Shown: piece after piece, positions 14,781-36,763 of the stretch
Numbering within the stretch: position 1 is the stretch's first letter
Layout: each line of letters opens with the position of its first letter
Assembly (NCBI GenBank): GCA_964017185.1
Contig: OZ024878.1
Location: forward strand, 3,162,151 to 3,226,150
Source of the DNA: Rugalucina vietnamica
Taxonomy: Eukaryota; Mollusca; Bivalvia; Lucinida; Lucinidae
Direction: 5' to 3'
Length of the DNA stretch: 64,000 bases
Made by a program: the position numbers and the translations under genes
The notes under the pieces: model-generated
Databases searched by the model: none
The model's input: only the letters and a program-made list of their open reading frames with translations
Told to the model about the DNA's origin: nothing

Positions 14781-14794
14781 TATATGATGTTACT

Positions 14795-15265: not shown

Positions 15266-15413
15266 GCACTCATGATTTGATCTGCTTTACAACTGACCTC
15301 CAAACAGTGAATTATTACTCAACAAGTCACTGCTAGAGCTGATCTGTTTCTTAAGCATCACTATCAATTTTTTTGTTTGATTTTCAAAATTACGTTATAT
15401 TTGTATGTTTCAG

Positions 15414-15556
15414 TGGTGTCATCATCCTCTATAAACTGTGAGAAGTGTAAAGCCAGCCAGCCTGTAATCAACCTAGCGCAGTGTTGTGATGGTCATCTCC
15501 TGTGTAAAATATGCCTAGAGAAAGCTGCTAAACTCATCTTAGTGGGAAATCAGTCA
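15414..15556 (+). CDS. RBR-PARP gene, RING1 exon
   Basis: Acceptor TTTGTATGTTTCAG and donor GTAAGT border 143 bp (phase 1 in, phase 0 out). It reads …SSSSINCEKCKASQP, then CCDGHLLCKICLEKAAKLI. The Cys/His pattern C-x2-C, C-x2-H, C-x2-C is the first six ligands of a C3HC4 RING; the last pair (CPVIDC) is in the next exon. In the RBR family, RING1 recruits the ubiquitin-loaded E2. The CDGHLLCxxCL block is, from memory, close to the RNF216/TRIAD3 RING1 (CRDGHLFCIECL). Low-complexity sequence precedes it as in that family. Confidence 0.85.
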
Positions 15557-15570
15557 GTAAGTAATAATAT

Positions 15571-16022
15571 GAGCCACGACACGATAGAAAACTGGCCCCA
15601 AGGTTATAAAACTTTTTTCAAGCTCAGCTCAGCTGAGCATGAAATTTCAACTGCTCATAAATGTTGAAATAATCAAAATAAGTGGAAAATTCAGGTTCAA
15701 AACTCAAAACCTAGTAATTTATCCTGCTAATAAATGTTAAAATGCCAACAATTGTTGGCATTTTAACATTTATGAGCAGGATAAATTTAAGTCTCAGCTG
15801 AGCTGAGCATAAAAAAAGTTTTATAACCTCGGGGCCTGGTCTTTAGGGTTTCTGACCAGGTGCGACACAACTGAGCTGTACAATCCCAGAAGATTTCGAA
15901 TTTAAGAAGAGACATTGTACTATCCCTGTAGCCAAACAAAGGTGCTGATCAGCTGCTAAGCTGATCTGCCCCTTTGTTATTGCATAAAGGAAAAAATCCG
16001 GTATTTTCATGACGCAGCTCAT
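15571..16022. mobile_element. MITE family C, copy 4, split by palindrome L
   Basis: GAGCCACGACACGATAGAAA at 15571 starts family C. It is interrupted at about 15594 and resumes at about 15837 as TGGTCTTTAGGGTTTCTGACC, ending GACGCAGCTCAT. Confidence 0.7.
15594..15836. mobile_element. Foldback element L, copy 1
   Basis: Terminal repeats GGCCCCAAGGTTATAAAAC and GTTTTATAACCTCGGGGCC, inner arms CAGCTCAGCTGAGCAT and CTCAGCTGAGCTGAGCAT, and a GCCAACAATTGTTGGC centre make almost the whole 243 bp self-complementary. Non-coding; a relative lies at 39070-39312. Confidence 0.8.
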
Positions 16023-16046
16023 ATTAGCTTAACCTCATTATAATGT

Positions 16047-16225
16047 GAGCCTGCACATGAGAAAACCAACAGTTTGGGGTTTGCGTGTCTGACCAGAACC
16101 GACACAAACCAGGCTTTACATTCACAGAATGAAGCTTGAAGCTTAAAATTTTGGATTTAAGAAGTATGGGGATTGTACTATCTATGGAATGAAAACAAAG
16201 TCACTGATCAACTGTGCAGTTACTG
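16047..16225. mobile_element. MITE family C, copy 5 (right end lost)
   Basis: Starts GAGCCTGCACATGAGAAAACC and reaches GCAGTTACTGCGGCTCAT, where it abuts the decayed RING exon copy. Most of the hairpin's second arm is absent. Confidence 0.65.
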
Positions 16226-16302
16226 CGGCTCATCTCCTGTGTAACACATGCCTAGAGAAAGCGGCTAAACATATACTGATGGGAAATCAATCAGTAAGAT
16301 CA
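16226..16302 (+). pseudogene. Decayed tandem copy of the RING1 exon
   Basis: CATCTCCTGTGTAACACATG…GAGAAAGCGGCTAAACAT…GGGAAATCAATCA, followed by GTAAGA, matches the right half of the RING1 exon (HLLCKICLEKAAK…GNQS) at most positions and keeps a donor. Its left half, with the first Cys pair and an acceptor, is missing, so it cannot code a RING. It lies 670 bp downstream of the real exon. Confidence 0.8.
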
Positions 16303-16437
16303 CTTTAGCGTCTTTATTTCACTATTTGTTACACCACTGCTTTGGATACAACTAGTGACTATTCCTAGACTAAATTATGGTCATTATAGACAAATTTTGT
16401 GATACATTACATTTAACTCTCATTGTAACACAAAAAT

Positions 16438-16660
16438 GAGCCGCCTCATGGGAAAACCAACAATCTGCATATGCGAAAACAAAGACGCAGATCAGCTTCG
16501 CGGTAACCGCCTTTGTTTTCGCTACTCGGATAGTACTATTCCTCTTCTACTTAAATCCGAAATTTCAAGCTTCTAGCTCCTTTCTGTGCTTGTACAGCCC
16601 GGTTTGTGTCGGACCTGTTCGAAAACCACATTGTTGGTTTTCCCACGAGGCGGCTCATTC
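16438..16660. mobile_element. MITE family C, copy 6
   Basis: Ends GAGCCGCCTCATGGGAAAACC and CCACGAGGCGGCTCATT. One hairpin arm is shortened. It is flanked by a 23-bp direct repeat, AACTCTCATTGTAACACAAA plus AAT (16415-16437 and 16661-16683). Confidence 0.8.
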
Positions 16661-16771
16661 AACTCTCATTGTAACACAAAAATCTCTCTTGCTTTATCAA
16701 CACTCCATCCTCCCCCCCCCCTTCATGGAAAATCGTGTCTGATCACTATAGGGGTTATCTCTTGATTTCAG

Positions 16772-16820
16772 GGACAGGTAATTTGTCCAGTGATAGATTG
16801 TGGAAGTTCCGTTCCTAAGA
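16772..16820 (+). CDS. RBR-PARP gene, exon completing RING1
   Basis: Acceptor TCTCTTGATTTCAG and donor GTGAGT bound 49 bp (phase 0 in, phase 1 out), reading GQVICPVIDCGSSVPK. CPVIDC gives the seventh and eighth zinc ligands of RING1, corresponding to the CMEGSC region of RNF216. It is short, but its fit to the domain and to both neighbouring phases makes it convincing. Confidence 0.8.
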
Positions 16821-16862
16821 GTGAGTATAGTTTCTTATTTCATTGAGAATTGTACAAGAGTT

Positions 16863-17287
16863 TCCCTTTGAGCCACATCTTGAGACAACAAAAGTTTTGC
16901 CTAAGCGAAAACAAAGGCGCAGATCAGCTTGTAGAAAGGTGCAAGTAGGCAAAGATCAGGAAAAGACGCAAGCAGAAAAAGATTCCCACTCCAAAAACCG
17001 AGATGGGAAAAAAACCAAACCAACAATCAGGCACTTATACCATGAAACATGTCTTAAGCCGAATGAGCAGCTATTTTCCCAATAGGTGGCCACTCAGTTA
17101 CCTTATCATTGTAGAAACTGCACAGCTGATTTGTGCCATTGTTTCCCCTACACAGACAGTACTTTTTCTCCTCTACATGTACCCCAAGTTTCAAGATCTT
17201 AGCTTTTTTTCTGTGACTGTACAGACCATTTTATGTAAGACCTGGACGGAAAACCCAAATACTAGTTTTCTTGCATCACAGCTCATA
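16863..17287. mobile_element. MITE family C-like element with unrelated core
   Basis: Left text GCGAAAACAAAGGCGCAGAT and right text GTTTTCTTGCATCACAGCTCAT are family-C ends, but the hairpin is split by about 170 bp (16935-17105) of unrelated sequence. That stretch is open on the + strand (SACRKVQVGKDQEKTQ…). It may be an insertion or captured fragment, and I find no recognisable domain. Confidence 0.5.
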
Positions 17288-17372
17288 TAAAGCTTTTCTG
17301 TTTCTGTCAACAGAATACGGACCAAAAATCATCATTGACATGATAATAAACATTGCAATCAGTCTACCCCCA

Positions 17373-17473
17373 GTAGGCACATGACGTCATAATGACGTCA
17401 TATCAACGTCGATGCGACGTATTAACGTCGCATCGACGTTGAAATGACATCATTATGACGTCATGTGCCTCCT
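17373..17473. repeat. Palindrome with several TGACGTCA sites
   Basis: Arms GGCACATGACGTCATAATGA and its complement near 17450 enclose ATCAACGTCGATGCGACGT and its complement. TGACGTCA occurs three times (17385, 17394 and 17455) and a fourth position is TGACATCA. The outer text CCAGTAGGCAC…GTGCCTCCTGG extends the symmetry. Confidence 0.85.
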
Positions 17474-17629
17474 GGGCCTAGACAATGGAGTCTGATAAAT
17501 TGTATTGATTTGAAATTTGTTTCTACAAAGTTATAAAATTGATGATTGATTTGATTTTTGCTATGATCTTGCTATATTACAACTCTAAAAAAAAAAGGAT
17601 AACCAATCACAAAAAACAAAAATTGATTA

Positions 17630-17826
17630 CGGGAGAGCATTAGACTCCAAATTCAGAGTTTCTGGGTTCAATTCTAATAAAGGTCATTGTGTTGTGTCCT
17701 TGAGCAAGACATAGACAACCAATGATTACTGGTCAATACTCAGGAAGGAGTGGTTTCATCCCAACATGACTTTAAAATTGTTGACGGGGATGTTAAATCT
17801 CAAAACAAACAAACAAACAACAAAAA
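17630..17826 (+). mobile_element. tRNA-derived SINE with CAAA tail
   Basis: A box GGGAGAGCATTAG, B box GGGTTCAATTC, body TTGTGTTGTGTCCTTGAGCA, and 3' end GGGGATGTTAAATCTCAAA followed by (CAAA)n. This is the most complete SINE in the window. Confidence 0.75.
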
Positions 17827-17827
17827 A

Positions 17828-18027
17828 ATGAGCCTTCCCCTGAGTCGGCCTACAATCTTGGGTCCGACACAAACCAGGCTGTACAGTCACAGAAGAAGGC
17901 TTGTAGCTTAAAATTTTTGATTCAAATATCTGTGTAGCGAAAACAAAGAAGCAGATCAGCTGTGCAGTTACTGAAATTAGCTGTGCAGTAACTGCACAAC
18001 TGATCTGCACCTTTGTTTATCACATAA
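17828..18027. mobile_element. MITE family C, copy 7 (degraded)
   Basis: It carries GAGCCTTCCCC, GACACAAACCAGGCTGTACAG and GCGAAAACAAAGAAGCAGAT, with the hairpin locally duplicated (AGCTGTGCAGTTACTG twice). Confidence 0.65.
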
Positions 18028-18232
18028 CAGTTGCGGTGGCCCAAAAGTATGTAAACTTTTCCCATGTTTTATGATCACCAATGGATCAGCAATTTTGACT
18101 ATGTTTTAATAGGGAAAATTAGTTTAATTGAAGTTTTTAGTTGTCAAAAAGTGAATTACAATATACAGTGTGATGTGTGTTTTATTGTAAAGGTGCATGT
18201 TTTTGAGTACTATTTTATTTTCTACAATGTAG

Positions 18233-18335
18233 GTGAGTTGAGGAAGTGTCTACACAGTATCATGTTAGACTTGTTGGATGAAAAATGGAATAAAGAGGCT
18301 GTTGATGCTATGAATGAGATGGAAGATTTTGTCAG
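18233..18335 (+). CDS. RBR-PARP gene, RING1-IBR linker exon
   Basis: Acceptor TTCTACAATGTAG and donor GTACGT bound 103 bp (phase 1 in, phase 2 out). The reading is SELRKCLHSIMLDLLDEKWN, then KEAVDAMNEMEDFVR. It is helical and corresponds to the segment in RNF216 where the RING1 to IBR linker reads ELEKVL…YYERK…ELVRCPSC, from memory. The exact junction R|CPDC is maintained by the next exon. Confidence 0.8.
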
Positions 18336-18342
18336 GTACGTT

Positions 18343-18451
18343 AGAAGATGTCTACACAGTATCATGTTTGATATATATGAAAGTGCTAGATAAATAATAC
18401 AACTTCTGGTAGATCAGGAGTGGAATAAACTGGATCTTGGTGCAATGGATC
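18343..18451 (+). pseudogene. Decayed tandem copy of the linker exon
   Basis: AGAAGATGTCTACACAGTATCATGTTTGAT and further on GGAGTGGAATAAACTGG…GCAATGGATCAAATG mirror the exon just upstream (AAGTGTCTACACAGTATCATG, GAAAAATGGAATAAAG, GCTATGAATGAGATG) but carry stops and a small insertion. Foldback K interrupts its right edge. Confidence 0.75.
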
Positions 18452-18456
18452 AAATG

Positions 18457-19008
18457 CACGGGTGGTAAACAGGGGAACTAGCTCCGAAAAGAGTCAGCGG
18501 GATTTGGTTCCCTCGGCACATCCGAGCTAGCCCTCTCGGTTGGAAACTGGTAAACAAAGGTATGTCTCGAAGCATTTAATCATTATTTATTTCTTTATTA
18601 ATGATCTAGTGAAAAATCCAGCAATGTAGTGCAGTTTAGAAATAATTTAGCACCTTTCGCTGCTAGGTTTGGTCATTGAAATATGCGCGGTTCGAACACA
18701 ACTTTGACACGCCTGTAGCACACTCTGAGATTTTCGGCTCAGTGCGCTACAGGCGTGTCAAAGTCGTGTTCGAGCCGTGCATATTTCAATGACCAAACCT
18801 GGCAGCGAAAAGAGCTAAATTATTTCTTAACTGCACTGCATTGCCGGATTTTTCACTAGATCAATAATAAAGAAATAAATAATGATTAAATGCTTCGATA
18901 CATACCTTTGTTTACCGGTTTCCAACCGAGAGGGCTAGCTCGGATGTACCGAGGGAACCAAATCCCGCTGACTCTTTTTGGAGCTAGTTCCCCTGTTTAC
19001 CACCCGTG
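18457..19008. mobile_element. Foldback element K (552 bp), 5-bp target duplication
   Basis: Arms of about 270 bp are inverted copies, ending CACGGGTGGTAAACAGGGGA on the left and its complement on the right. The target repeat AAATG flanks it at 18452-18456 and 19009-19013. The arms differ at few positions, so it is fairly young. No protein is encoded. Confidence 0.9.
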
Positions 19009-19084
19009 AAATGCTAGACAAGACAAATATTTTGGCAATTTTCACCTTTTTTTTTTTCTTTTTTTTTTTCGTCGCCCAGAAAAA

Positions 19085-19282
19085 TATTTGGTCGCATTTG
19101 CCAATTATGCAACAGACTATTTCAAACACTGGACAAACCAAGTTCTGCTTGCAGGTATTTATTGTTCTGCCTGCAGGTGTTAGATGATTTTCTCTGAGAA
19201 CTCTCACTGATTTGCACTGATAAGCCATCTCATATGAGTGAAATAATCTTAGAAGAGATGTAAAAACTGAATAAAAAAACAG
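19085..19282 (+). mobile_element. SINE 3' part
   Basis: CCAAGTTCTGCTTGCAGG…CATCTCATATGAGTGAAATA…ACTGAATAAAAAAAC is shared with 4150-4300 and 49193-49340. The tRNA-like head is not preserved. Confidence 0.55.
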
Positions 19283-19307
19283 TTGATAAAAGCATCAAAT
19301 ATCAGAG

Positions 19308-19543
19308 GAGCCGCGACGCGAGAAAACCGGTCTTCGGGGTTTCCGACCAGGTCTGACACAAACCGACATGTACAGTCCCAGAAGCAGCATAGAAGCTTGA
19401 AATTTTGGATTTAATAAGAGGAGAAAGTGTACTATCCGTATAGCGAAAACAAAGGCGCTGATCAGCTTCGCAGTTACTGCTAAGCTGATCTGTGCCTTTG
19501 TTTTCGCATAGGCAAAAATCCGGTTTTCTTGTGACGCGGCACA
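19308..19543. mobile_element. MITE family C, copy 8
   Basis: GAGCCGCGACGCGAGAAAACC to GTGACGCGGCAC, with an intact CTGATCAGCTTCGCAG palindrome. It ends 42 bp before the next coding exon. Confidence 0.8.
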
Positions 19544-19584
19544 GAGCATAAGTTTGATTGGTTGCATTTTTGTTTGCTTTCCAG

Positions 19585-19657
19585 ATGTCCTGATTGTGGC
19601 TACTCTGTGATTCTTGATTTGAACATTAAAATGCATCGCTGTGAAAAGTGTAAAAAG
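19585..19657 (+). CDS. RBR-PARP gene, IBR exon part 1
   Basis: Acceptor TTTGCTTTCCAG and donor GTAAAT bound 73 bp (phase 2 in, phase 0 out). With the upstream AG it reads RCPDCGYSVILDLNIKMHRC, then EKCKK. The ligands CPDC and CEKC are the first four of an IBR. The RCPxCxxxxxLD pattern matches the RNF216 IBR from memory (RCPSCSFPALLD). Confidence 0.85.
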
Positions 19658-19680
19658 GTAAATGTGATTACTTTATAATT

Positions 19681-19917
19681 GAGCCGCTGCATGGGAAAAC
19701 CAACAATCTGCATATGCGAAAACAAAGGCGCAGATCAGCTTTGCGGTAACCGCGAAGCTGATCAGCGCCTTTGTTTTCGCTACACGGATAGTAAAATTTC
19801 TCTTTTTCTTAAGTCCGAAATTTCAAGCTTCTATCCTGCTTCTGTGACTGTACAGGTCGGTTTGTGTCAGACATGGTCGGAAATCCTGAAGACGGGTTTT
19901 CTCGCGTCGAGGCTCAT
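19681..19917. mobile_element. MITE family C, copy 9
   Basis: It starts 23 bp after an exon donor. Ends GAGCCGCTGCATGGGAAAACC and CTCGCGTCGAGGCTCAT; palindrome intact. Confidence 0.8.
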
Positions 19918-20234
19918 ATGATGTCGATGTTTTTCAGTGGTTAACGTCATGTAATAAAAAGTGTTATGACCGCAAGTGTATTAATACTTTTGCAGGAGTT
20001 CATAAAGTCATTGACGACGTCCGTAACAACAGTGTGAATTTTCATTGAAAATATGTCCAATGTGAAGGCAAAAATGCTATTTCAAGAGCCATATGTTAAA
20101 ACGAATCTTACACTTGTGGCCATTTCCTATGAAATTGATTAAACTCGCTGAAGGCTCGTTTAATAAATTTCATTATGAAATGACCTTTTGTGTAAGATCC
20201 ACTATATGAGTCATTGCCAGTGGCCATTTACTTT
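19918..20234. other. Intron, nothing recognised
   Basis: Contains a loose inverted pair CATTTCCTATGAAATTGATT and AATAAATTTCATTATGAAATG at 20122-20190; otherwise I see no gene or known repeat. Confidence 0.5.
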
Positions 20235-20430
20235 TAGGCAAAGCTGTGGCCTAGTTGTAGAGTGTCTGGCTCAGGATCAACAGGTGGAACCCTGTTGGCA
20301 AGGGGCTGTGTCCTTAAGCAGGACACATTGACTCCTCATAGTACATAGAGAACTGATTCATAAGCAGAAAGCAGTGGGCCTATCCAGACATGACTGAAAA
20401 AGTTTTATTGCGTTATTTAACCACATAATA
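20235..20430 (+). mobile_element. Degraded tRNA-derived SINE
   Basis: GGCCTAGTTGTAGAGTGTCTGG has an A-box look, followed by TGTGTCCTTAAGCAGGACAC and CTATCCAGACATGACTGAAA, words shared with other SINEs in the window. The B box is poorly kept. Confidence 0.5.
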
Positions 20431-20752
20431 AGCAAAATAGAAACTTAAGGTCATAACCATTATCATACATGTACCAATGTTAATGCTTGGTTGCCTCAAT
20501 TGAAAATAGAACTGTCAGAGATCAAACTTACTTCCAAAATTTGGGTTTTAAACTCTTTCTTTTTGATCCTAACTTCAACTTTTTGAAACTCTCCAATAGT
20601 TGAGGATAGGAAGAATGGTTATGCATAGGAAGAATCCAACATTTTAGGAAATGCCTCATATTTACTCTGATTTCCCATACCCTAGTGAGGGATGCATGTG
20701 TCAATTGTATAAGAGGAAAAATTAACCAACTATCGTTCCTATAATTTTTCAG

Positions 20753-20815
20753 AAATTTTGTCGGTTCTGCAGCCTACATTGGGAGATAAAGAACCATGAC
20801 TTCTGTTATGAATTA
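20753..20815 (+). CDS. IBR second-half exon, tandem copy 1 (alternative exon?)
   Basis: 63 bp reading KFCRFCSLHWEIKNHDFCYEL, phase 0 at both ends, with acceptor ATAATTTTTCAG and donor GTAAAT. It carries the second half of the IBR ligand set (CRFC, H, C). Because it is phase 0/0, it could be included with the copy at 21077 or used instead of it only if the rest of the protein follows. The constitutive copy is probably 21077, which alone has the linker to the PARP domain. Confidence 0.5.
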
Positions 20816-20860
20816 GTAAATCTGTATATCAAATGTAAAATATTTCCCTTTAACTTTCAG

Positions 20861-20923
20861 AAATTTTGTCGGTTCTGCAGCCTACATTGGGAGATAAAGA
20901 ACCATGACTTCTGTTATGAATTA
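20861..20923 (+). CDS. IBR second-half exon, tandem copy 2 (alternative exon?)
   Basis: This appears identical to copy 1 over the exon and about 45 bp of following intron, with unit length 108 bp. Acceptor TTAACTTTCAG, donor GTAAAT, phase 0/0. The identity implies a very recent duplication or an assembly duplication. Confidence 0.5.
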
Positions 20924-20968
20924 GTAAATCTGTATATCAAATGTAAAATATTTCCCTTTAACTTTCAG

Positions 20969-21040
20969 AAATTTTGTCGGTTCTGCAGCCTACATTAGGA
21001 GGTATAGAACCACTACTTCTACATTAAAAATGAAAATCTG
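20969..21040 (+). pseudogene. IBR second-half exon, copy 3 (dead)
   Basis: KFCRFCSLH is followed by a TAG stop (CTACATTAG) and the donor is lost. The acceptor remains. It is more diverged than copies 1 and 2. Confidence 0.8.
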
Positions 21041-21076
21041 TATAAAAAAAGTAAAATGTTTCCTTTTAACTTTCAG

Positions 21077-21217
21077 AAATTTTGTCGGTTCTGCAGCCTA
21101 CATTGGGAGGTAAAGAACCATGACTTCTGTATTAAGATGAAAACCCAGAAGACTGCTGACGGTCAGGGTGTCATCACCGTCCCCGCTCACTGGAACATCA
21201 CAGCTGACCAGGAGCTG
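21077..21217 (+). CDS. RBR-PARP gene, IBR second-half exon, copy 4 (constitutive)
   Basis: Acceptor TTTTAACTTTCAG and donor GTAGGA bound 141 bp, phase 0/0. It reads KFCRFCSLHWEVKNHDFC, then IKMKTQKTADGQGVITVPAH and WNITADQEL. The first part completes the IBR zinc site (CRFC…H…C). The second part, VPAHWNITADQEL, resembles the stretch that immediately precedes the PARP catalytic domain in PARP7-type proteins (from memory VPxTWxPM…). There is no RING2 in between. Upstream intron text is shared with copies 1-3. Confidence 0.85.
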
Positions 21218-21233
21218 GTAGGAATTGCTGTTT

Positions 21234-21460
21234 GAGCCGCCTCGTTGGAAGACCCAACAATGTGGTTCTGAACAGGTCCGACATAAACTGACCTGTACGA
21301 GCTCAGAAGATGGCTAGATACTGGAAATTTTGGATTTAGAAAGTAGAGGAATTGTACTATCCATGTAGCAAAAACAAAGGCAATGATCAGGTACTGCGAA
21401 GCTGATCTGCGCCTATGTTTTCGCATATACAGATTGTTGGTTTTTCATGAGGCGGCTCAT
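21234..21460. mobile_element. MITE family C, copy 10
   Basis: It starts 16 bp after the exon donor. Ends GAGCCGCCTCGTTGGAAGACC and TCATGAGGCGGCTCAT; the hairpin is partly deleted. Confidence 0.75.
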
Positions 21461-21480
21461 TTATTATTTACATTCTAGCC

Positions 21481-21600
21481 ATGGTGCAAGAAAACTGGTC
21501 TTTTAGGGTTTCTTACAAGGTCTGACACAAACCGGCCTTGATAGTCACAGAAGAAGGCTTTGGATTTCAGAATAAGAAGGATTTTACTATCCATTTAAGC
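21481..21600. mobile_element. MITE family C remnant
   Basis: ATGGTGCAAGAAAACTGGTCTTTTAGGGTT and GACACAAACCGGCC are left-end family-C text, broken by the family-A copy at 21604. Confidence 0.5.
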
Positions 21601-21603
21601 AAA

Positions 21604-21848
21604 ACATCAGGAAAACATGTCCGTGTAATGTATACCCCCTTGAACCCCACTTTTATATAGCAAAACAGGGGTATGCAGGGGTATACCTATTTTTCTTATT
21701 TTTTCTCCAAAACATAGATTGTGGGTACTCGACGAGGCAGTTCTAACGCGTACCCACAATCTATGTTTTGAGCAAAAATAAGAAAAATATCAAAATTTTT
21801 CTGCTAAAAATTTTCAATTTTTTAAGCTCAAAAATTCTCTGTACATGA
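21604..21848 (+). mobile_element. MITE family A, copy 6
   Basis: Starts ACATCAGGAAAACATGTCCG. It has the hairpin CCAAAACATAGATTGTGGGT…ACCCACAATCTATGTTTTG, with the GC-rich centre reduced. The right terminus is eroded. Confidence 0.75.
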
Positions 21849-21944
21849 CACCAATCACCTGTGCAGTTATTGCACATCTGATCTGCGCTGTTGAATTCGC
21901 ATCTATATGTAGACAAAACCCTTGTTTTCTTATAGTGCTGTTGA

Positions 21945-22050
21945 ATTACTATAAGCTTTACCGTAACAATAGTATTAAAATGAAGACCCCAGAAAACAGC
22001 TGACAGATGGGAATTATCACTTTGCCTGCTCACTGGGACCAAAATATGGT
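21945..22050 (+). pseudogene. IBR second-half exon, copy 5 (dead)
   Basis: AGTATTAAAATGAAGACCCC…GAATTATCACTTTGCCTGCT…CACTGGGACCAAAATATG then GTAACA matches the right half of the 21077 exon (IKMKTQ…GVIT-PAHWN). It has a stop after MKTPENS and lacks the zinc-ligand half. Confidence 0.75.
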
Positions 22051-22214
22051 AACAGCTATGTCCAACAATTAAACTTTAACCTTAGCCTGTCATCCTTTTT
22101 ATGGGGCAAAAGCAAACTTTGCCTGCTCACTGGGACCAAAATATGGTAACAGCTATGTCCAACAGTAAAACTTTAACCTTAGCCTGTCATCCTTTTTATG
22201 GGGCAAAAGCAAAC
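22022..22214. repeat. ~98-bp tandem duplication
   Basis: CTTTGCCTGCTCACTGGGACC through GGGGCAAAAGCAAA occurs twice in direct succession (from about 22022 and 22120). It includes part of the dead exon copy, so duplication has continued in this locus. Confidence 0.85.
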
Positions 22215-22216
22215 AG

Positions 22217-22400
22217 CATAGTCCCAGATGTGACCCGCAGGATCTATTTGCTTAGAGGATTTTCATCGAAAGATTGAATAAAATTTATAAGATCACTCCT
22301 AACGCCACTAAGAATGAAAGTGGACTCACCCAAATGATAATGGCGGGTGAATCCATTCGTCATTAATGGCTTGTTGACCTCTTTGGCATTAAACTTTAAG
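22217..22400 (-). repeat. Dispersed repeat (inverted relative of 327-545)
   Basis: CATAGTCCCAGATGTGACCC…GAATCCATTCGTCATTAATG is the reverse of the 327-545 repeat. Confidence 0.5.
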
Positions 22401-22718
22401 CAACCAGAAAACCTATAGAAAACCAACTACCTTGAGACATGCCATGACTAGTCTGTGGCATGCCATGGCCCGGATTCCAACCCAAACCACAGAGATGACA
22501 AGCAATTGTTTTAACTACTATGGTATTTAGGCCTACGTTAGAATAAAGACAAATATCATTTAACTGATCAAGTCTTCAACCAACCAGACTGTTTAATCAA
22601 TGTAAATGTCGGGTGAATTGATATTTCACATTTAGAAAGTAGATAAATCTTTAAAATTCTTATTTTGCAAAAATAAAAAAGGCTTATTGGGTTTGTAGAA
22701 TTTAATGTTGCAATTTTT

Positions 22719-23713
22719 ATCGCACCTGCTTATAGGAGGGTGCGATATAGGAGTTCAAATTTCCGTCCGTCCGTATGTTCGTTCGTCCGTTCGTTTGTTC
22801 GCACGTCCATCAACATTTACGTCAAAGTTTAGTTTTCTGGACATGATAGCTGCGAGTCTGAAACCTTGCATAGTAATTGTCCTTGACATACCCTTCAAGC
22901 ACGTACCTTGACCCAGTACCCCTGACCTATATTTCATGGTCCACTGACTTTGAAAATTTTTACGTCGAAGTTTGGTTTTCTCGACATCAGTGATAGCTAC
23001 AATCTGAAACCTTGCATAGTAATTGTCCTTGACATACCCTTTAAGCATGCACCTTGACCCGCTGACCTTGTCCTATATTTCACGGTCTACTGACTTTGAA
23101 ATTTTTTACGTTGAAGTTTGGTTTTCTCAACATCAGTGATAGCTGCAAGGGTGAAATCTTGCATAGTAATTGTCCTTGACATACCATTCAAGCACGCACC
23201 TTGACCCGCTGACCTTGACCTATATTTCACGGTCCATTGACTTTGAAAATGTTTACGTCGAAGTTTGGTTTTCTCTGCATCAGTAATACCTGCGAGCGTG
23301 AAACCATGCATAGTAATTGTCCTTGACATACCCTTCAAGCATGCACCTTGACCGGCTGACCTTGACCTATATTTCATGGTCCATTAACTTTGTTAATTTT
23401 TATGTCGAAGTTTGGTTTTCTCTGCATCAGTGATAGCTTTGAGTGTGAAACCTTGCGTAGTAACTGTCCTTGACATACCCTTCAAGCACGCACCTTGACC
23501 TGCTGACCTTGACCTATATTTCACGGTCCATTGACTTTGTTAATTTTTATGTCGAAGTTTGTTTTTTTCTGCATCAGTGATAGCTGCGAGTCTGAAAGCT
23601 TGCATAGTAAATGTCCTTCATATACCCTTTCAGAACACACCTTAACCTGGTGCCCTTGACCTATTTTCACTGTTTAAGTTATTTTGCCGATGCAGGTACG
23701 ATATCGACCTCCG
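22719..23713 (+). mobile_element. Family J element, copy 1
   Basis: Starts TATCGCACCTGCTTATAGGA and ends GATGCAGGTACGATATCGAC; the ends are inverted repeats (TATCGCACCTGC / GCAGGTACGATA). The interior is about six ~135-bp units with TTGACCTATATTTCACGGTC and CATCAGTGATAGCTGCGAG. An inverted relative is at 48526-49188. Confidence 0.8.
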
Positions 23714-23759
23714 CTGCTATGTTATGACATTATGTGACTCATGAGTCATATATTTTCAG

Positions 23760-23905
23760 CCTTTCCAGCAAGTGACAGTGGATGAAACTGACATTGAGTT
23801 TACAACTATTGCCGAGTTGTTTTATGCCACTATGCAGAGAAATGCGTTCAAAGTTGAGAAGGTGTACCGAATACAGAATCAAAGACTATGGGAAAAATAT
23901 ATGCT
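23760..23905 (+). CDS. RBR-PARP gene, PARP catalytic domain, exon 1
   Basis: Acceptor CATATATTTTCAG and donor GTAAGA bound 146 bp (phase 0 in, phase 2 out). It reads PFQQVTVDETDIEFTTIAEL, then FYATMQRNAFKVEKVYRIQN and QRLWEKYML. This is the opening of a PARP catalytic domain: the EFxxIxxLFxxTM helix followed by the strand and the RIQNxxLWExY signature. From memory it is nearest to PARP7/PARP11/PARP12 (RVQNQFLWEKY). The helical autoinhibitory domain of PARP1-type enzymes is absent, as expected for mono-ADP-ribosyltransferases. Confidence 0.9.
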
Positions 23906-23967
23906 GTAAGATACTCATTGATTGAAGAAATTTTCATGTGACTTTTAATTTCAGGTATTCTCTTTTT

Positions 23968-24832: not shown

Positions 24833-24894
24833 TGAACTATTATGTGTTCTTTAATTCAGGATGGAGAATATGTATAGTCTATAAAGCTTGTAAT

Positions 24895-27072: not shown

Positions 27073-27240
27073 TTCACATAGAAAACAAATTCTAGTTAAG
27101 TCTTGCTTTTAGTGAATATTAGTGAAAATTAAGCTCTCGGGAACATCTCTAAACAAATTGTTTTTTTTTCCATAGAGATTTGTCATAAGACAATATCTGT
27201 TTACATATACCAAATGTTGACTGTGGACTTTTAGCTCTTA

Positions 27241-28050: not shown

Positions 28051-28295
28051 ATTTCAAATAACAAATCGGATATTCGGACAAAGAAGATGGGGGGAGGCTC
28101 GAAACTTTGTTTTAAAAAGGAAGCAGAGTGTACTATCCTTTCAGAGAACAAACTGATTAAAAGCCTGCATGACTTAGTGGTTATGCCTTTTGTCTTGTGG
28201 AATCAGTCTTGGGGTACTTCAGTCTTTCTGATGAGTCTTTTCTAAATATGACCCTAGCTGTTGAGTGGGGCATAAAACACAGATTTCTTTTTCAG

Positions 28296-28447
28296 TATGA
28301 GAACCCACATGGTAGCTGACCTGGGAGAGATGCACATTAACGAACAACGCTTGTTTCACGGCACCGCAACAGAGGTCTTACCAGCCATATGTAAGGAAGG
28401 TTTTGATTGGCGGTTGCATGGTAGAAATGGGACAGCCTATGGTCAGG
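28296..28447 (+). CDS. RBR-PARP gene, PARP catalytic domain, exon 2 (NAD-binding His)
   Basis: Acceptor TTCTTTTTCAG and donor GTAAGT bound 152 bp (phase 2 in, phase 1 out). It reads …MVADLGEMHINEQRLFHGTA, then TEVLPAICKEGFDWRLHGRN and GTAYGQG. LFHGT holds the first residue of the catalytic H-Y-x triad. The AICKEGFD and GTAYGQG elements are typical of mono-ARTs (PARP7 reads LFHGTS…ICKHNFD…FGQGSYFA from memory). The donor falls between GQG and TYFA, so the next exon supplies the Tyr. Confidence 0.9.
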
Positions 28448-28454
28448 GTAAGTA

Positions 28455-28655
28455 TGTAAGGAGGGATTTGATCGGCACTTGTGTAAGTCTGTAAGAAAGG
28501 ATTTGATTGGTAGTTGTGTAAGTTTGTATGGTCGGATTTGATTGGTAGTTGTGTAAGTATGTAAGGAAAGATTTGATTTGCAGTTATGTAAGTGAGGAAG
28601 GATTTGATTGGCAGTTACAAGGAAAGAATGGGACTGCATATGGCCAGAGTAAGGT
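28455..28655 (+). pseudogene. Decayed tandem copies of the end of PARP exon 2
   Basis: The stretch repeats (G)TAAGGA…GATTTGATTGG…TTGTGTAAGT four times. The last unit, AAGGATTTGATTGGCAGTTA…GAATGGGACTGCATATGGCC then AGAGTAAG, matches the exon end (AAGGTTTTGATTGG…AATGGGACAGCCTATGGTCA). These look like shortened, dead copies of the final ~55 bp of the exon plus donor. Confidence 0.75.
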
Positions 28656-28695
28656 CTTAGCATTTTCCTGCATTTAGATTAGGGTTATTATAAAG

Positions 28696-29381
28696 CCCCT
28701 GTCAGACACTCACGAGTTGGACCTACGAGTTAAGCTCCGCCCACTTTTTTGGTGAACTCGTAGCAACTCGTAGAGAACTCGCCCAATGTTGGCGGTTGTC
28801 GTACAGAACTCTTCCCAACTCGTAGCAACTCGTAGCATGTCGAGGAAAGGCTACGAGAATTTTAAACTGTTTGAAATTCTCGTAGCAAGTCGTAGCAACT
28901 CGCCGTCTTAATGTGGGCGGGGCATGGGCGGAGCATAACTCGTACTGATCTCGTAGCTTGTCGTACAGAACTCGTAGTAATGTCGTGGGATGTCGTGCAT
29001 TCTTGGCGTCTTGTCAAACATGGCGAGTTGCCTACGAGATACCTACGAGTTGCTACGAGATACCTACGAGTTGCTACGATTTTGAAGGAGACTTCTCACG
29101 AGTTCCTACGACATCTCACAAGTTTACTACGACATTCCTACGAGTATCCGCGAGTTTCCACGACTTATATCGTAGGGATGTCGTGTAGAACTCGTAGGAC
29201 ATTACAGGACAAGCGGCGAGTTATGATTTGCGCTAACTTGTAGCTTCAACTCGTGAGTGTGTGACAGCTTTTAAAGTTTTTCAACATAACTCGTGGCAAC
29301 TCGCGCGACAAGCAGCGACTTATAACTCGTACCAACTCGTAGCACGTTGGGGCTTCAACTCGTGAGTGTGTGACAGACCCA
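28696..29381. mobile_element. TIR element made almost wholly of ACTCGTAGC variants
   Basis: Ends CTGTCAGACACTCACGAGTT and AACTCGTGAGTGTGTGACAG. Between them the sequence is a degenerate series of ACTCGTAGC/GCTACGAGT words switching strand, so ORFs here are artefacts. A second internal right-end-like copy lies at 29250-29273. Confidence 0.8.
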
Positions 29382-29925
29382 TAATAGAGGCAAACTTGTC
29401 CAGTCATTAATTAAGAATTATATCAGTATAACCAGGCTCCAAGTAACTGCATTTGATCTATTGTTTTAGCTCACCTGAGCCGAAGGCTCACAAGGTGAGC
29501 TAATAGGATGGCCATGATCCGGCGTCCGTCTGTCCGTCGTCCGTCCGTCCGTCGTCGTCCAACACAATTTCAAAGATCTTCTTCTCTGAAACCCCTTGGC
29601 CGATCTAGTTGAAATTTTATGTGGAGCCTCCTTGGATAGTGGCATTTAAATTTTGATCGCGATATCTTGGTCACATGACCAAGATGGCCGCCACACCCAT
29701 ATATGGTAAAAAACACTTCAAAAATCTTCTTCTCCAGAACCGGTGGGCCGATTTCTATGAAACAGTATGTAGCATCGGGGACTTCAACCCATCATAGTTA
29801 AATAATATGATGCCCCTTGGATGACCTTGACCTATTTTACGGCAAGGTCAAATTTGGAAACAAAGGCTTTTACATGGGAAAAAGTGAAAACTATGTATTT
29901 TTTGAAAACTATTGCAGCCTGAGAC

Positions 29926-32900
29926 TAGTCCAGCAGGAAATCAGTTTGACCTTGCAATGAGGTATAAAGTTTTTTTCTTTGCTGATTCTTAGAGGTTAGA
30001 GCTTGTCTTTGTAGAATCCAACTGATGACATCTTGTCATCATTGGGGAATTCGAGAAAATCAAGATGGCGTCCAAGGGGGTCCACCACACGATGAAAATT
30101 TACATACTGTCAAATATTTTATCCCTAAATTAATGGAAAGATGCATTGATTTCCTCTGAATATTACTATTATCAACATAACTGGCTCATGCTGTTGTTTA
30201 AAAACTTTCCTATTTAAGATGGCATCAAAGATGGCCGCCAAAACTTGAAAAACATGGACTTTTGTGCTTTGTACAGTTTTGTTCATGAACAGCAGACTAA
30301 TAATAAGTTGTTAACTCCGATTATTGTTGGTATCAGTGTTTCTGGCTGCAGCTATTTTTTTCTGGGCTCATGCATCAATAATGGTGTCCAAGATGGCTAC
30401 CAGAATAGATATATGAATTTCAAGATGGCATCCCACATGTCTACATGATAACAATTCTTGCGGTATTACTATAGGATATGACCTAAATGACATTTTTATG
30501 AAATCATTAAGTGAGAATTTGCTGTATGTCTGTCATATGGAAGGATGCCATTTCCAAAATATTCAAGATGATGACAATGATGGCCACCAGATTATGTTTT
30601 CAAATTGGAATGCTATGGGGATGTAAAATTGACTTAAAATGTTGCATACACCAATGTTACCATTCTAGTATGATTTAAAATGACATTAATAATATTGATT
30701 TTACACAACTGACATATACATGACTACAATATAACCGATACAGATGAAATATATAGTTCAGTAGCAATACATGTACAGAGGTTAAAAATTTACCAAAATA
30801 AAGACACTGTACATTATGAGTTAGGTAAGAATAGAACGTGAATAAAACCATTCCAGAAATTGAATTAAAATCCAATCCCGGACACCAGGCGTGAAGGATA
30901 GGGCATCACAGTGTGAATTTTGCTTGACCATATCGTTGGTGGTTGATCAACACTAAGAACATATTTTTGATGTGCAAGTTATGGTTGTTGGAGATTTTTT
31001 GTTCAATTTTATACCATTTTCGAAATTTCACCTCCTATCACATATCAATATGTCTGACAAAAATGATAGAACCCCAAGAAAAACACCTGACATACCCACA
31101 AGAAACACTCTATTTTTGTCTCACATGCCCCATACATGGCTCGAACCCATACAGGACACAGCAGTGAGATGACTGGATAATAGATAGCAGTAATGAAATC
31201 AACAACCATAACCACTTGGCCACAAGAGCCACCAAGACAAGATTTCAATCACTCATACCGATAAACAAACCAAAACTAATAATGCTGAATCACAACAGGC
31301 ATATAAATCTAAACCCTTATTACAGTACAGAATGAACAGGATATAGAGTTGCTCTTGTTATTGCAACCACCCATTCAAAATGTTGTGCTTGCTATTACTG
31401 AGAACAACAAGTAGTTTACTGAGTTGATATGTAAAATACAGTGACCAATCTATTTGCCAGAATACTGATTGTCGTAAAAGCAAAATTGAATCACAAACTG
31501 AAATCATTCAAACTGATATTGTTGAAATGTGGGCTTAAAACGACTTATGAAGTGGTTAAACTATTTGTGTATTTTAAATTGATGTTCGAGGATATAATAT
31601 GGGATTATATTAGTTTTAAAAGAATTGGTGTACGGGTCATATTTGTTTTACAGTTGTATCATTACCAAGCTCATAGCCATATAGTACTCATTAAAGAGAG
31701 TCTACCAACAAAGCTATCACAATCAAAATTGAAACACTGACATAGTGTCTGACTCATTCAGATTTGATAAGGCCGACAGCTTTATCGGAATATGCTAGTC
31801 AGCAGCTTTGCAATATTGGTAGAAACAAAAAAAAGAAAAGAAAAGAAACTGATACTCACAGACAATATGATATATATACTTAGAGCTCATGTCCATACTC
31901 TTTTGTTCATTTGTACATACTCTCTGGTCTATACCCACAACATACCTGATCTGTGCCCACATTTACCCATGTCGCCTAATCGATAGCCACACATTTCTGT
32001 AATCTTTACCCACAAAAACACATTAGGGATATTCATTCGTATTCATAGATTAGGGAGTGAGCAAGATGGATATAAATGGAGACTGCAGTTGGGTTTGAAT
32101 CGGAGGTCATACAAATATTGTGTACATATCAGTGACAAATAATGTGTACATATCAGTGATGGTACAGGTCAGAGACTGGATATTATGGGTACAGATTAGA
32201 TTTAGTATTGATACAGATCAGGGACTGAGTACAGTTTAGTCATACATTATTCAAAGCTACTGTGGTGATTAAGGAGGTCACAGCTTTTTGTTGGTCTAAT
32301 TTGCAAATTTTCACATGGATGTATGACTGATATTTAATCCGTACTCATTGGATGGCAACATAATAAAGCTCCACACAAAACAAAAATAAAGATACAAGCA
32401 AGGTTAGTTCATTTTGGAAGCGGTGCCACTATCACAAATGAAGAGCTTTGGGTAGGCTTAGGAATTTCTTGTTCATTGATATATGTGTTTTTATTGAGAA
32501 AATCTGTTAAAAACAAAATACACATTCTGTTGGTCATCTTAGACACCACCAATGATGCAAAGGTCAAGAAAAGATACATCAACCAGAAATACTGAAGCTT
32601 TTCGTAGTCAAATTTCTGAAAAATCACTGAAAATCCATTCTTATTGCTTTGGTAGCCTTTTTGGATGCCATCTTAAATATATAAGTCTAGACAGGATAAT
32701 GTAGCTTCAGTCCAGATATGTTGATATTTACATTATTCAAAGGAACACAATGCACATTTCATTAATTTTGGAGTAATATGACAACATGAATACTAGTATT
32801 ATATTGTAGAACACATGGTCGCCATCTTGATTTTCTCAAGTGATGACCAGATGCAATCAATGTGATTATTTTGAGTCAATGTATCAGTGAGCAACAAGAA

Positions 32901-33306
32901 TTTAAGAATCAGTGAGAAACATTGTATAATTGTATCTCACTAGTTAAAATGAAATATTTTTGTTGCTGTACTATTTGATGCCATGATGATAATCTGGCGG
33001 CCATGTTGGACACCATCTTAAATATTATGACGAAAATGTGTGTTCCATTGACTGTTTGTGTTACATATCATACAACATTGGAGAAAATGTCATTTTGAGT
33101 TCGTTTTAGTCTGTAATATAGTATGAAACGATATCTGGTAAACATGTTGGATGCCATCTTGAATTTTTCAAAAACCCCAATGATGACAAAGTGTCATCAG
33201 CCAGATTCTTGAAAAACAATGCCTATACTACAAGAATCCACCAAGAAAAAAACTTTATACCCAATAACCAGGTCGATCGAAAATCTACCAAATTTCTGCT
33301 GGACTA
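29926..33306. mobile_element. TIR/foldback element P nested in family E
   Basis: Ends TAGTCCAGCAGGAAATCAG and …AAATTTCTGCTGGACTA with a GAC duplication on both sides. Further inward, GGTATAAAGTTTTTTTCTT and AAGAAAAAAACTTTATACCC continue the inverted arms, and words such as AAGATGGC / GCCATCTT recur in opposite orientation to at least 30250 and 32640. The central ~2 kb (30670-32580) is AT-rich with no transposase I can see; it includes a SINE-like piece near 31060-31230. Confidence 0.75.
31060..31230 (-). mobile_element. SINE-like piece inside element P
   Basis: GAACCCCAAGAAAAACACCT…GGCTCGAACCCATACAG…CAGTGAGATGACTGGAT…CCACTTGGCCACAAGAG parallels 49440-49585 and 34120-34290, the reversed tRNA-like heads of a second SINE family. 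Confidence 0.5.
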
Positions 33307-34019
33307 GACCTAAAAAGTGGTAGATGCAAACAACTAATGGAGTAGATGAGGGTATGTGATTAATTTAGGTCAAGGTAGTCTGACGTCCATATGCACTTTT
33401 CAAAGATCTTCATCTCTGAAACTGCTTGGCCAATCAAAGTAAAATTTTATGTGGAGCATTCATGGGTAGGGGGAAAGAAAGTTTGATCGCGAAATTCGGG
33501 TCACATGACCAAGATGGCAGCCATGCCCAACTATGGTAAAAACCACTCAAAAATCTTCTTCTCCAGAACATGAAGGGAAAATTGGTATATAGCATTTGGG
33601 ACTCCAGCCCATCATAGTTTGTTGAAATAATGACCCTAGGATGACCTTGACCTATTTAACGGCAAGGTCAGTTTTTGAAACATAGGCTTTTACATGGGAA
33701 AAAGCGAAAACAATGGATATTTTGGAAACTGTTGCAGCCTGAGACCCGAAAGTTGCTAAATGCAGACAACTAATGAAGGTAAGTAATTAATGAAGGCCAA
33801 GGTCAGGCCAAAAAAAAAAGCAATGTTTCCGGTAACATGCCAGAAAAAAAATGGGTCGATAGGTAGGGATTTTTTTTTTTTAATGAGGGAAGCCTTAAAA
33901 AAGCCATAAAAATTTCCCATTTTGAGGTCCTCTAACCCTTACCAACTTTCATTAACTCTGATAATAAGTATTAGATACACAGGGAACCAATGATCCCCCA
34001 TCCCCCATTTTCTGATTGT

Positions 34020-34292
34020 TTTTTTAGATTCAGTTTTATGTCCCTTTCAAGATAAAATCACTCATAACGAGATAATGCAAATCAGTATGTGGGCGAAAGC
34101 GGGAGAAGCCCCGCCCCCACTCCAATGAAAAACCACCTGACACACCCATAAGCAGAACTGGGCTTATCCCACTTTTGGCCTGACCCAGGCTTAAACCCAC
34201 AGTGGTGAGATGATCAAATGGTTAATAGCGCTGATAAAAAGCGACCATAAATGCTTGGCCGCAGGGGTCGCTGATAAAAATTGGACGGATAA
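34020..34292 (-). mobile_element. Inverted SINE inside element Q
   Basis: Begins (T)nAGATTCAGTTTTATGTCCC, the reverse of the SINE tail at 4290, and continues through CCACCTGACACACCCATAAG to AACCCACAGTGGTGAGATGA and TGGCCGCAGGGGTCG. This is the third level of nesting here. Confidence 0.65.
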
Positions 34293-34329
34293 TGGGGGAG
34301 GGTAATTGGTTCCCTGCTTAACCATTCCA

Positions 34330-34527
34330 TTAATTTATGGAAAACTGGAAGCCACCAATTAATGTAAATATGGTCGATGCACAATACCTTGTCTCCTTTG
34401 GGGCAACGAACGCCCTACCCCTCGTCATGAGGAGTTCGAAAGCATTTAGGGCCTTGCCTGTGGCCTCTCGTGCACATTTTGATATTATTGTTTCCACTTG
34501 GTTTTCTTTGCTTAAATTACATGCCAT
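34330..34527 (-). pseudogene. Short coding-like fragment inside element Q
   Basis: A 65-codon reading, MACNLSKENQVETIISKCAR, then EATGKALNAFELLMTRGRAF and VAPKETRYCAS…, has a protein-like composition unlike the surrounding repeats. It has no splice signals I trust and no domain I can name. It could be a captured gene piece or chance. Confidence 0.3.
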
Positions 34528-35327
34528 CTAAATGACTTTGACTCCTAGATGGCAAACTTCGTCGACCAACATTTCCCCACCCACCTCGAATGGCTCGGTG
34601 GAGGGGCTTAAATCAATTTTACACTGAAATTGTGCAATTGTTTTTGAGATGGTATGTGTGTTTTCCTTGAAAGTGTGAAACATTTTGAACACATCATTTA
34701 GTGTTGATTGACCGTCTAATTATGACGTTAGTTTTTTTTTTCACTGCCCTGCTCGCAATTTTTTATGCCAAGTGCGAGAATTTGTTGGCCACTGCCACTG
34801 GAGGCCGCCATTTTATCAGTACTGCACATGCCCATGTATTGATCGTATAATCGACGGTACGCTAAATGTGATATTCTACGGTATTCTTTTGCTGGTCTGG
34901 TACTTGAAAAACAGGATCTTTTTTCGATTTTCGAGTTTTTATTATGGGAAAACAGGAAAAAAATTATAGAGTCGGGGAGTTTTTGACAGGGTCGGTCGGG
35001 TTACCGGATACATTCCTTTTTTATTTTTTCGCCTCATTTCTTGACCTTGACGCAAGGTCATTTAAATATCAAAATTAAAATTATGGTTTCCTCAGAAATC
35101 ACTTGGTTTGGAAACTATTGCAACTTTGCAGATGCAGACAACTTATGAAGTCAATAAAGGTCATTTCATGATGACTTAATACTCCAAGATCAGGCTTCAG
35201 GTGAGCGTTCTCAGGACCAATGGTCCTCTGGTTAGAGTATTTTACAACTAGCCTGATAAATGAATTTAGAATTTTAATTGTCAGTTTCTGGGTGCTTTTA
35301 TTCATAAGGTATGATTTAGGTTTATAT

Positions 35328-35570
35328 GAGCTGTGACACAAGAAAACTCGTCTTTCCAACCAGATCCAATACAAATTGGCCTGTGCAGTCACAGAAGATG
35401 GCTAAAAGCTTAAAACTTTGGATATAAAAAGAAGAGCAATTATACTATCAGTGTAGCATAAACAAATGCGCTGATCAGCTGTGCAGTTACTGTTAAGCTG
35501 ATCAGCACCTTTGTTTTTGCATAGACAAAAATGTGAGGGAAAAATGTGGTTTTCTCATGACGTGGCTCAT
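35328..35570. mobile_element. MITE family C, copy 11
   Basis: GAGCTGTGACACAAGAAAAC to CTCATGACGTGGCTCAT, with the hairpin CTGATCAGCTGTGCAG partly kept. Confidence 0.75.
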
Positions 35571-35952
35571 TTACTTCCAAAAGAACTGTTCCTTATTCAT
35601 GGAGCTGTGGTTCTATCACAACAAAAGTGAAAAATTGTCTTGGCTTCAAATGTCAAATCTTAACAGTTCTACAAATTAAAGTGTGTTTCCTAGAGTCTGT
35701 TAATGTTTTTTCCCAGATATTTTACAGCTGTTTAAATGTAAATGAAATATTTTCCTATTAGTACAATTTAGCATAGAAACTTTATTCACTATCTGATTTT
35801 AAATTTCAAAATTTTTGCAGGTCCTAATAGGACAATCTAAGATCAAGATTTTGACATGAAAAAAGTTTTTCCTATCACCCATCATGCAAACATTTTGTGA
35901 AAAAACAATATCAGAGGCAATGTTTTAGACTTTAATTTCTGTAACATTACAG

Positions 35953-36737
35953 GGACCTATTTTGCCAAAGACGCCAACTACTCGCATAACTACTCTTCCA
36001 AGCATGGTGCTTACAAAAGAAACCATTCCCACCACCACCATGCTGCTCATCACATGATTAACATCATGATGAACCGCCAGCCGTCGACCATACCATTACC
36101 GTTTGGAGCGTTTCCCGGCCCTCCCCCACCCACTACCCAGTCACAGTCTATATTCAACAGTAGTGGTCATGGATTTGGGAACCAGCAAGGCTTTGGTTCC
36201 AATGTTGGAAATAGTTCAACAAATGCAACTGGAAACCAGCAACAGTCGTCTGGTTTCCAGTTCGGTGGGCTAGGGTCATCAGGAAGCTCTTGGTTCAAGC
36301 TTGGAGGCCATTCAACATCAAATACTGGGTTTTCGTTTGGACATTCCAACACAGGGAACCTATCACATCAACATAGTGGACCTTTTGGTGGTACCAGTGC
36401 GGCGTCTGCTAGCTCAAGTTCTGGATTCAGTTTTGGTAGTAGTGGCGCGTCATCTGGGACTACTTTCGGACCGGGCACCAATCTTACAGGAAGTATGGAT
36501 TCTGGAAGTGATGCCTGCGGAAGTTTCATGTTTGTCGGTCGTGTGTTAGTGGGGCGTGTTTGTAGGGGAACTCCGGATATGCGTAGACCGCCAAGTTCTG
36601 AAAACGAGAAAGAACAGAGAATGTGCCATACTGCAGTGAACAGTGTTCACAAACCGTCCATATATGTGGTGTTTGATAGTTCACAGTGTTATCCCGAGTA
36701 CCTTATAGAATATAAAAACCGGGACTTTTCATACTAG
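35953..36737 (+). CDS. RBR-PARP gene, last exon: PARP core with His/FG-rich insert
   Basis: Acceptor TGTAACATTACAG, phase 1 in; stop TAG at 36735. After GTYFAKDANYSHNYSSK, which holds the NAD-binding Tyr of the H-Y-x triad, a typical PARP continues within about ten residues to the MFLAxVLxG strand. Here about 170 residues intervene: a His cluster (HSHHHHHAAHH), a Pro run, then Gly/Ser/Asn/Gln-rich sequence with GFQFG, GFSFG (twice) and TTFG motifs. The core then resumes as SFMFVGRVLVGRVCRG, MRRPPSSENE, KPSIYVVFDSSQCYPEYLIE and ends …YKNRDFSY. Everything is in one exon with an open frame, so the insert is translated if the gene is. Activity cannot be judged. The third triad position lies in the YPEYLI strand and needs structural alignment. 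Confidence 0.9.
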
Positions 36738-36757: not shown

Positions 36758-36763
36758 AATAAA
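36758..36763 (+). promoter_or_regulatory. Poly(A) signal AATAAA
   Basis: Canonical AATAAA 20 bases after the TAG stop of the PARP exon, followed by T-rich sequence. It supports this as the gene's end. Confidence 0.75.

Follow-up and report, generated by a model that had tools for sequence, protein, structure and literature searches.

Does a single gene in a bivalve genome join part of the ubiquitin machinery to an ADP-ribosyltransferase (ART), and if so, what might such a protein do? The question is raised by a locus in 64,000 nucleotides of Rugalucina vietnamica (Lucinidae; GenBank assembly GCA_964017185.1, contig OZ024878.1, positions 3,162,151 to 3,226,150 of the forward strand; hereafter the window). 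By its sequence, the gene at 15414-36737 encodes an RNF216-type RING1-IBR, then a PARP12-like domain in place of RING2, with phenylalanine-glycine (FG) repeats inside that domain. The swap of a PARP domain for RING2 and the FG-rich insert in the catalytic domain are the new elements. We consider the chances evenly balanced that the product is a chimaeric mono-ADP-ribosyltransferase recruited or gated by ubiquitin, perhaps at nuclear pores, and not a RING-between-RING (RBR) ligase.

One gene or two

The initial annotation had chained seven exons and a terminal exon by phase and had placed a RING-IBR and a PARP domain, covalently joined, in one gene. The chain was reproduced. Eight exons span 15414-36737 on the plus strand, each with GT-AG borders, in phase and with no stop between them, and give a product of 529 residues that is open at its 5' end. 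AG precedes all seven exon starts named in that annotation, and all seven internal donors are GT.

15414..15556, plus strand: exon, first part of RING1 (C-x2-C, C, H, C-x2-C)
16772..16820, plus strand: exon, final RING1 zinc ligands (CPVIDC)
18233..18335, plus strand: exon, helical linker between RING1 and IBR
19585..19657, plus strand: exon, first half of IBR
21077..21217, plus strand: exon, second half of IBR and linker leading into the PARP domain
23760..23905, plus strand: exon, beginning of the PARP catalytic domain
28296..28447, plus strand: exon, PARP NAD-binding core with the triad H in RLFHGT
35953..36737, plus strand: terminal exon, GTYFA (triad Y), FG insert, C-terminal PARP strands (PSIYVVF, PEYLIEY), stop at 36735-36737
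36758..36763, plus strand: AATAAA polyadenylation signal directly 3' of the stop

The RING-IBR-PARP part (285 residues) was searched against 5.8 billion predicted proteins, and a follow-up profile search scored the 8000 candidates with the most shared words. The architecture, which the initial annotation had proposed to seek in other molluscs, was found in Mercenaria mercenaria (P0007, 986 aa; 49% identity across 97% of the 285-residue region), Ruditapes philippinarum (P0001, 592 aa, flagged as a partial protein; 48% identity over 100% of the region) and Potamilus streckersoni (P0010, 1260 aa; RING1-IBR-PARP order by the profile search). Three further members cover less of it: Gigantopelta aegis P0011 (333 aa, IBR plus PARP, the model starting after RING1), Haliotis cracherodii P0012 (1018 aa, RING1 plus PARP) and P0002 (666 aa, RING1 plus PARP, intronless on a 2,023-base contig), whose source label we take to denote a transcript assembly. 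Gigantopelta and Potamilus were looked up as molluscs; Mercenaria, Ruditapes and Haliotis we take to be molluscs as well. The family was thus already present, unnamed, in mollusc protein sets, a fact absent from the initial annotation. P0003, P0005, P0006, P0008, P0009, P0013 and P0014 were not counted as family (their Pfam domains, whether listed or scanned, include no IBR; P0005 and P0014, outside the Pfam scan, were judged on listed domains), nor was P0004, an RNF216 relative without PARP. Among viral contigs, 54 pattern matches encoded no relative, and plasmids gave no match; animal genomes lie outside both collections.

The Mercenaria and Ruditapes proteins align straight through the junction of exons 5 and 6 (21217/23760). 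Because proteins of other molluscs align across the joins, the fusion in the window is beyond chance. Two adjacent genes, or a chimaera of assembly or annotation, would be an alternative. A poly(A) site between 21217 and 23760 had been named as a sign of two genes, and the 2.5-kb intron 21218-23759 holds six AATAAA/ATTAAA signals where about 3.5 are expected at the window's mean rate, a count that is not decisive either way. Splice sites of the gene, those of exon 6 among them, are weak on a simple home-made score (23760 acceptor 0.8, 23905 donor 0.6), and, like the window exons, the relatives are themselves predictions. On the other side, the exon chain keeps phase throughout, and RING1 and PARP stand together on the intronless contig of P0002. 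Above all, Mercenaria, Ruditapes and Potamilus each have a single predicted protein that runs from RING1 through IBR to PARP and so crosses the join, and we therefore rejected the two-gene reading as highly improbable. These predicted proteins argue firmly for one gene and a conserved fusion. In a tree of 14 PARP domains, with four long branches, one branch has all seven family rows on the same side, and the window pairs with P0002 (93/89); the window row retained 3 insert residues. A single old fusion is plausible.

Earlier links between ubiquitin domains and PARPs are of other kinds. Clade 3 PARPs with a U-box (Dictyostelium) and clade 6 PARPs with UBCc (fungi, a green alga, moss) have been described (PMC2964712, PMC4245714), and these are ubiquitin-pathway domains other than the RING1-IBR of the window gene. 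Both papers survey how PARPs evolved and note links to U-box, UBCc, UBA and UIM; the main text of neither contains the word IBR. DTX3L-PARP9 and the Deltex-PARP pairs likewise combine ubiquitin and ADP-ribose chemistry (PMC12687431), but the Deltex-PARP pairs are separate polypeptides, whereas the window gene would encode one polypeptide with an RBR-derived half. No description of a RING1-IBR plus PARP combination appeared in the titles and abstract openings of the matches listed from open-licence PMC literature, an absence that is not proof, and two RefSeq locus names of the family are not mentioned in that literature.

Several repeats lie within the gene. At 20747-21130 a tandem array (108 bp x 3.6) copies the beginning of exon 5 together with its acceptor (FCRFCSLHWE...). 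The intron that follows exon 7 contains an exon 7-like fragment at 28588-28668 (tblastn E 1e-4), and the one that follows exon 1 a weaker exon 1-like fragment at 16201-16290 (tblastn E 0.21); both are perhaps decayed partial exon copies. A 147-bp satellite-like repeat occupies 22816-23670 in an intron and recurs at 48595-49122, 25 kb downstream, in the opposite orientation as judged by eye.

The RING1-IBR half and the place of RING2

The front half of the product resembles RNF216/TRIAD3, as had been proposed for its RING1, helical linker and IBR. Residues 6-143 match RNF216 in a PDB search (E 1.1e-15), and the Mercenaria RING1-IBR likewise matches RNF216 best (2.2e-17, against 0.0025 for the RBR protein that ranks next). 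Profile searches, suggested in the initial annotation as a check, gave Pfam PARP at E 3.7e-24 in the window protein, with IBR_1 at 9.1e-5 and IBR at 1.5e-4, the last two under the Pfam gathering scores. In all six members that cover RING1, the two without a Pfam IBR included, and also in P0004, the eight zinc ligands of this domain follow a single spacing pattern; the RING1 of P0002 is a few residues shorter. The IBR scores above the gathering threshold in Mercenaria and Ruditapes and below it in the window, Potamilus and Gigantopelta, and the IBR ligand pattern is present in all five. No IBR was found in Haliotis P0012 or P0002 by the Pfam scan, a negative that is a matter of Pfam only; the IBR ligand pattern misses P0004's own IBR.

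The term "ubiquitin-ligase module", used in the initial annotation, could not be retained. A RING2 query derived from P0004 scored at shuffle level C-terminal to RING1/IBR in all seven family members (shuffle fractions 0.13-0.87); the positive control, P0004, is the source of the query and hence trivial. The window protein is therefore not filed as an RBR ligase. The family shares RING1, helical linker, IBR and probably a CUE-like domain with RNF216/TRIAD3, but the RING2 of the latter, with its catalytic cysteine (C688 in human RNF216; PMC9834252), is undetected, and a PARP domain stands there instead.

RBR ligases act through RING2. In the RBR protein HHARI, RING1-IBR is reported to bind the ubiquitin-conjugating enzyme (E2) and to leave the ubiquitin of the E2 unactivated toward lysine; whether this extends to other RBR RING1 domains is left open by that study (PMC3305615). 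In RNF216, an allosteric ubiquitin sits at the RING1-IBR interface, and binding of ubiquitin-charged E2 (E2~Ub) is raised by K63 di-ubiquitin (PMC9834252). From the undetected RING2, the non-activating RING1-IBR of HHARI and the ubiquitin site of RNF216, we infer that the front half is an E2/ubiquitin docking part and not a ligase.

Alternatively, the protein could be a true dual enzyme, in which RING1 is a ligase of the usual RING kind and the substrates are shared with the PARP domain, so that ADP-ribose-ubiquitin marks arise in cis. The zinc ligands of RING1, intact even where Pfam finds no IBR, are in keeping with this, and there is a precedent in trans, since DTX2 and PARP10 make ADP-ribosylated ubiquitin (PMC12687431). 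The failure to detect RING2 in any of the seven members speaks against a dual enzyme, as does the behaviour of HHARI, to the extent that it is general. DTX proteins carry a DTC domain, and no Deltex-type domain is among the Pfam matches of the window protein or of its six relatives. We consider a dual enzyme unlikely.

The catalytic domain, its insert and a possible mechanism

Window residues 170-285 and 454-523 match PARP12 (PDB search, 1e-38), the nearest solved relative. The domain had been called a PARP7-like mono-ART core; its mono-ART type was upheld, but PARP7 is not among the 49 PDB matches of the window protein. Aligned to PARP12, the triad residues lie in LFHGT, GTYFA and PSI (H-Y-I), the I of PSI being what we take to be the third residue. 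H and Y are kept in all seven members, and among the five with a C-terminus the third residue is I in four and V in one. H-Y-I is also found in PARP11 and PARP12 (PMC9189837), and the PARP domain of the window gene would thus be a mono-transferase, if active. With PARP7, PARP11 and PARP12 (clade 3) the family shares the catalytic domain and H-Y-I, and PARP11 has also been linked to nuclear pores. It differs in having RING1-IBR in front, in the absence of CCCH or WWE domains among the Pfam matches of the window protein and its six relatives, and in an insert of 59-358 residues before the C-terminal strands (five complete domains). This insert was not mentioned in the initial annotation. In the window it is as follows.

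36000..36524, plus strand: FG/FxFG-rich, Ser/Gly-rich insert within the PARP domain (175 residues, product 285-459)

The insert, flanked by the GTYFA strand on one side and the C-terminal strands on the other, measures 175 residues in the window, 358 in Mercenaria, 197 in Potamilus, 59 in Gigantopelta and 205 in Haliotis; the partial Ruditapes model ends at this position and was left out of the counts. FG and FxFG exceed composition-preserving shuffles in three of the five inserts. The window insert has 8 FG and 3 FxFG (expected 2.5 and 0.18; p 0.0004 for each) and 4% charged residues, that of Mercenaria 10 and 7 (expected 3.8 and 0.26; 10% charged) and that of Potamilus 10 and 4 (expected 2.7 and 0.26; 3% charged).

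P0002 has only a short linker at the insert position, where its sequence ends. It carries two GLEBS motifs (Pfam 9.5e-32; PDB Nup98 5e-20). What the family shares with Nup98 is thus the FG/FxFG repeats, in the window, Mercenaria and Potamilus, and the GLEBS motifs, confined to P0002; but GLEBS is the sole Nup98 domain among the Pfam matches of P0002, and the window protein has none. A tblastn search with P0002 gave no convincing GLEBS in the window, which does not include the 5' end of the gene; the single alignment touching the end of a P0002 GLEBS is a RING1 match extended into an intron. Two different features in different members, missing in others, suggest a nuclear-pore link. Modification of NUP98 by human PARP11 has been reported (PMC9189837, PMC7827148), and the FG repeats and GLEBS of this family would be an independent line to the reported role of PARP11 at the pore.

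In the mechanism that we propose, RING1 would dock E2 or E2~Ub, and the RING1-IBR surface would bind ubiquitin, as at the allosteric site of RNF216, which is activated by K63 di-ubiquitin. Docking would recruit or open the ART domain, which would then mono-ADP-ribosylate nearby targets, for example the E2, ubiquitin or a ubiquitinated protein. Less surely, the FG insert, or in P0002 the GLEBS motifs, may tether the enzyme to nuclear pores or to transport factors. A more specific version is improbable in our estimate: K63-type ubiquitin or E2~Ub on the RNF216-derived half would switch on or position the ART, and the targets would be the held ubiquitin/E2 or the nuclear-pore proteins that anchor it via FG or GLEBS. 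If true, ubiquitin and ADP-ribose modification would be linked covalently, within one molecule, at the nuclear pore, and the link would be old among molluscs. Crosstalk between the two modifications is known mainly between proteins that are not joined (DTX with PARP9, PARP10 or PARP14; tankyrase with RNF146), and the fusion allows a direct test of whether RING1-IBR can serve as a ubiquitin sensor driving another enzyme.

The RING1-IBR might also be a mere protein-binding or scaffold relic on an ordinary PARP7/11/12-type mono-ART that is targeted by its disordered parts. The SIM-like, FG and GLEBS pieces could suffice for targeting (SIM, SUMO-interacting motif; see below), and Haliotis and P0002, without a Pfam IBR, and the slightly shortened RING1 of P0002 would fit such decay. 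Preservation of the eight zinc ligands in every member covering RING1, bivalves and a gastropod alike, speaks against a relic. This explanation is doubtful, if a little less so than the dual enzyme.

Several points weigh against the ubiquitin-gated, pore-associated transferase that we prefer. Mutations at the RING1-IBR ubiquitin site of RNF216 lowered base activity (PMC9834252), so the allosteric role of that site is not validated by mutation. Since Haliotis and P0002 have no Pfam IBR, such a site cannot work in every member. The gastropod inserts show no FG enrichment (Gigantopelta 1 FG and 0 FxFG, Haliotis 0 and 0), and the pore link is therefore not family-wide; FG-rich disordered stretches are also found away from pores. 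The branch uniting the family has a support of 49/73, which argues for a single origin only weakly. The predicted structure of Mercenaria P0007 (two-row alignment) has a mean pLDDT of 30. Finally, a CUE-like stretch encoded upstream in the window has no match in the N-terminal parts of the Mercenaria, Ruditapes and Haliotis proteins (z 0.4, 1.0 and 0.2).

The 5' part of the gene and the flanking DNA

This CUE-like stretch, which the initial annotation did not include, lies in a candidate exon.

1224..2690, plus strand: upstream exon-like open reading frame (ORF), which likely belongs to the RING1-IBR-PARP gene; a CUE-like stretch (REIFPSV...HPYP) precedes a long region, probably disordered, that carries two SIM-like motifs

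Its translation matches residues 579-625 of Potamilus P0010 (32% over 47 aa, E 3.8e-4; tblastn, 15.4 kb), and the match stands above shuffles (z 12.1, 0 of 2000 as high). The Potamilus stretch in turn matches the N-terminal part of P0004 (z 7.3), where P0004 has a sub-threshold Pfam CUE; for the window stretch against P0004, z is 3.6, and 0.6% of shuffles reach it. SIM-like motifs number two in the window exon (0.09 in shuffles) and two in Potamilus (0.17), with one each in Mercenaria, Ruditapes and Haliotis (shuffle fractions 0.17, 0.11 and 0.21, no clear excess), and the same count against shuffles found none in P0002 or P0004. A RanBP2-type zinc finger scores below threshold in Potamilus P0010. 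The published domain scheme for RNF216/HOIL-1 lists SIM and CUE (PMC9834252).

The exon at 1224-2690 probably belongs to the RING1-IBR-PARP gene, although its splice-site scores are low (0.7 and 0.3). Given its match to Potamilus, the gene start is probably further upstream. The donor at 2690, if right, leaves phase 0, so that the interval from 2690 to 15414 must contain at least one further exon. Splice-site scoring yielded no candidate for this link, a weak test in which most known exons also fall below the cut-offs. The gene thus seems, from the predicted domains, to be RNF216-like from CUE to IBR, with the PARP domain at RING2's place. The ORF at 5488-5994 was considered as the linking exon and rejected (no homology and, by eye, no matching phase). 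A 120-bp x 4 array at 5477-5958 encodes MSKSKKRNLRKKAKRQQQLMEIQMQQIQ repeats within a 169-codon ORF.

Two long ORFs lie downstream of the gene. At 40685-46687 an unbroken 2001-aa gag-pol-like ORF, named by eye, has a zinc-finger-like tail and is of the long terminal repeat (LTR) retroelement type. On the minus strand, 55485-60965 holds a single 1827-aa ORF, Q-rich and highly charged, with 14-aa repeats REPRQDGSYDRGRD.

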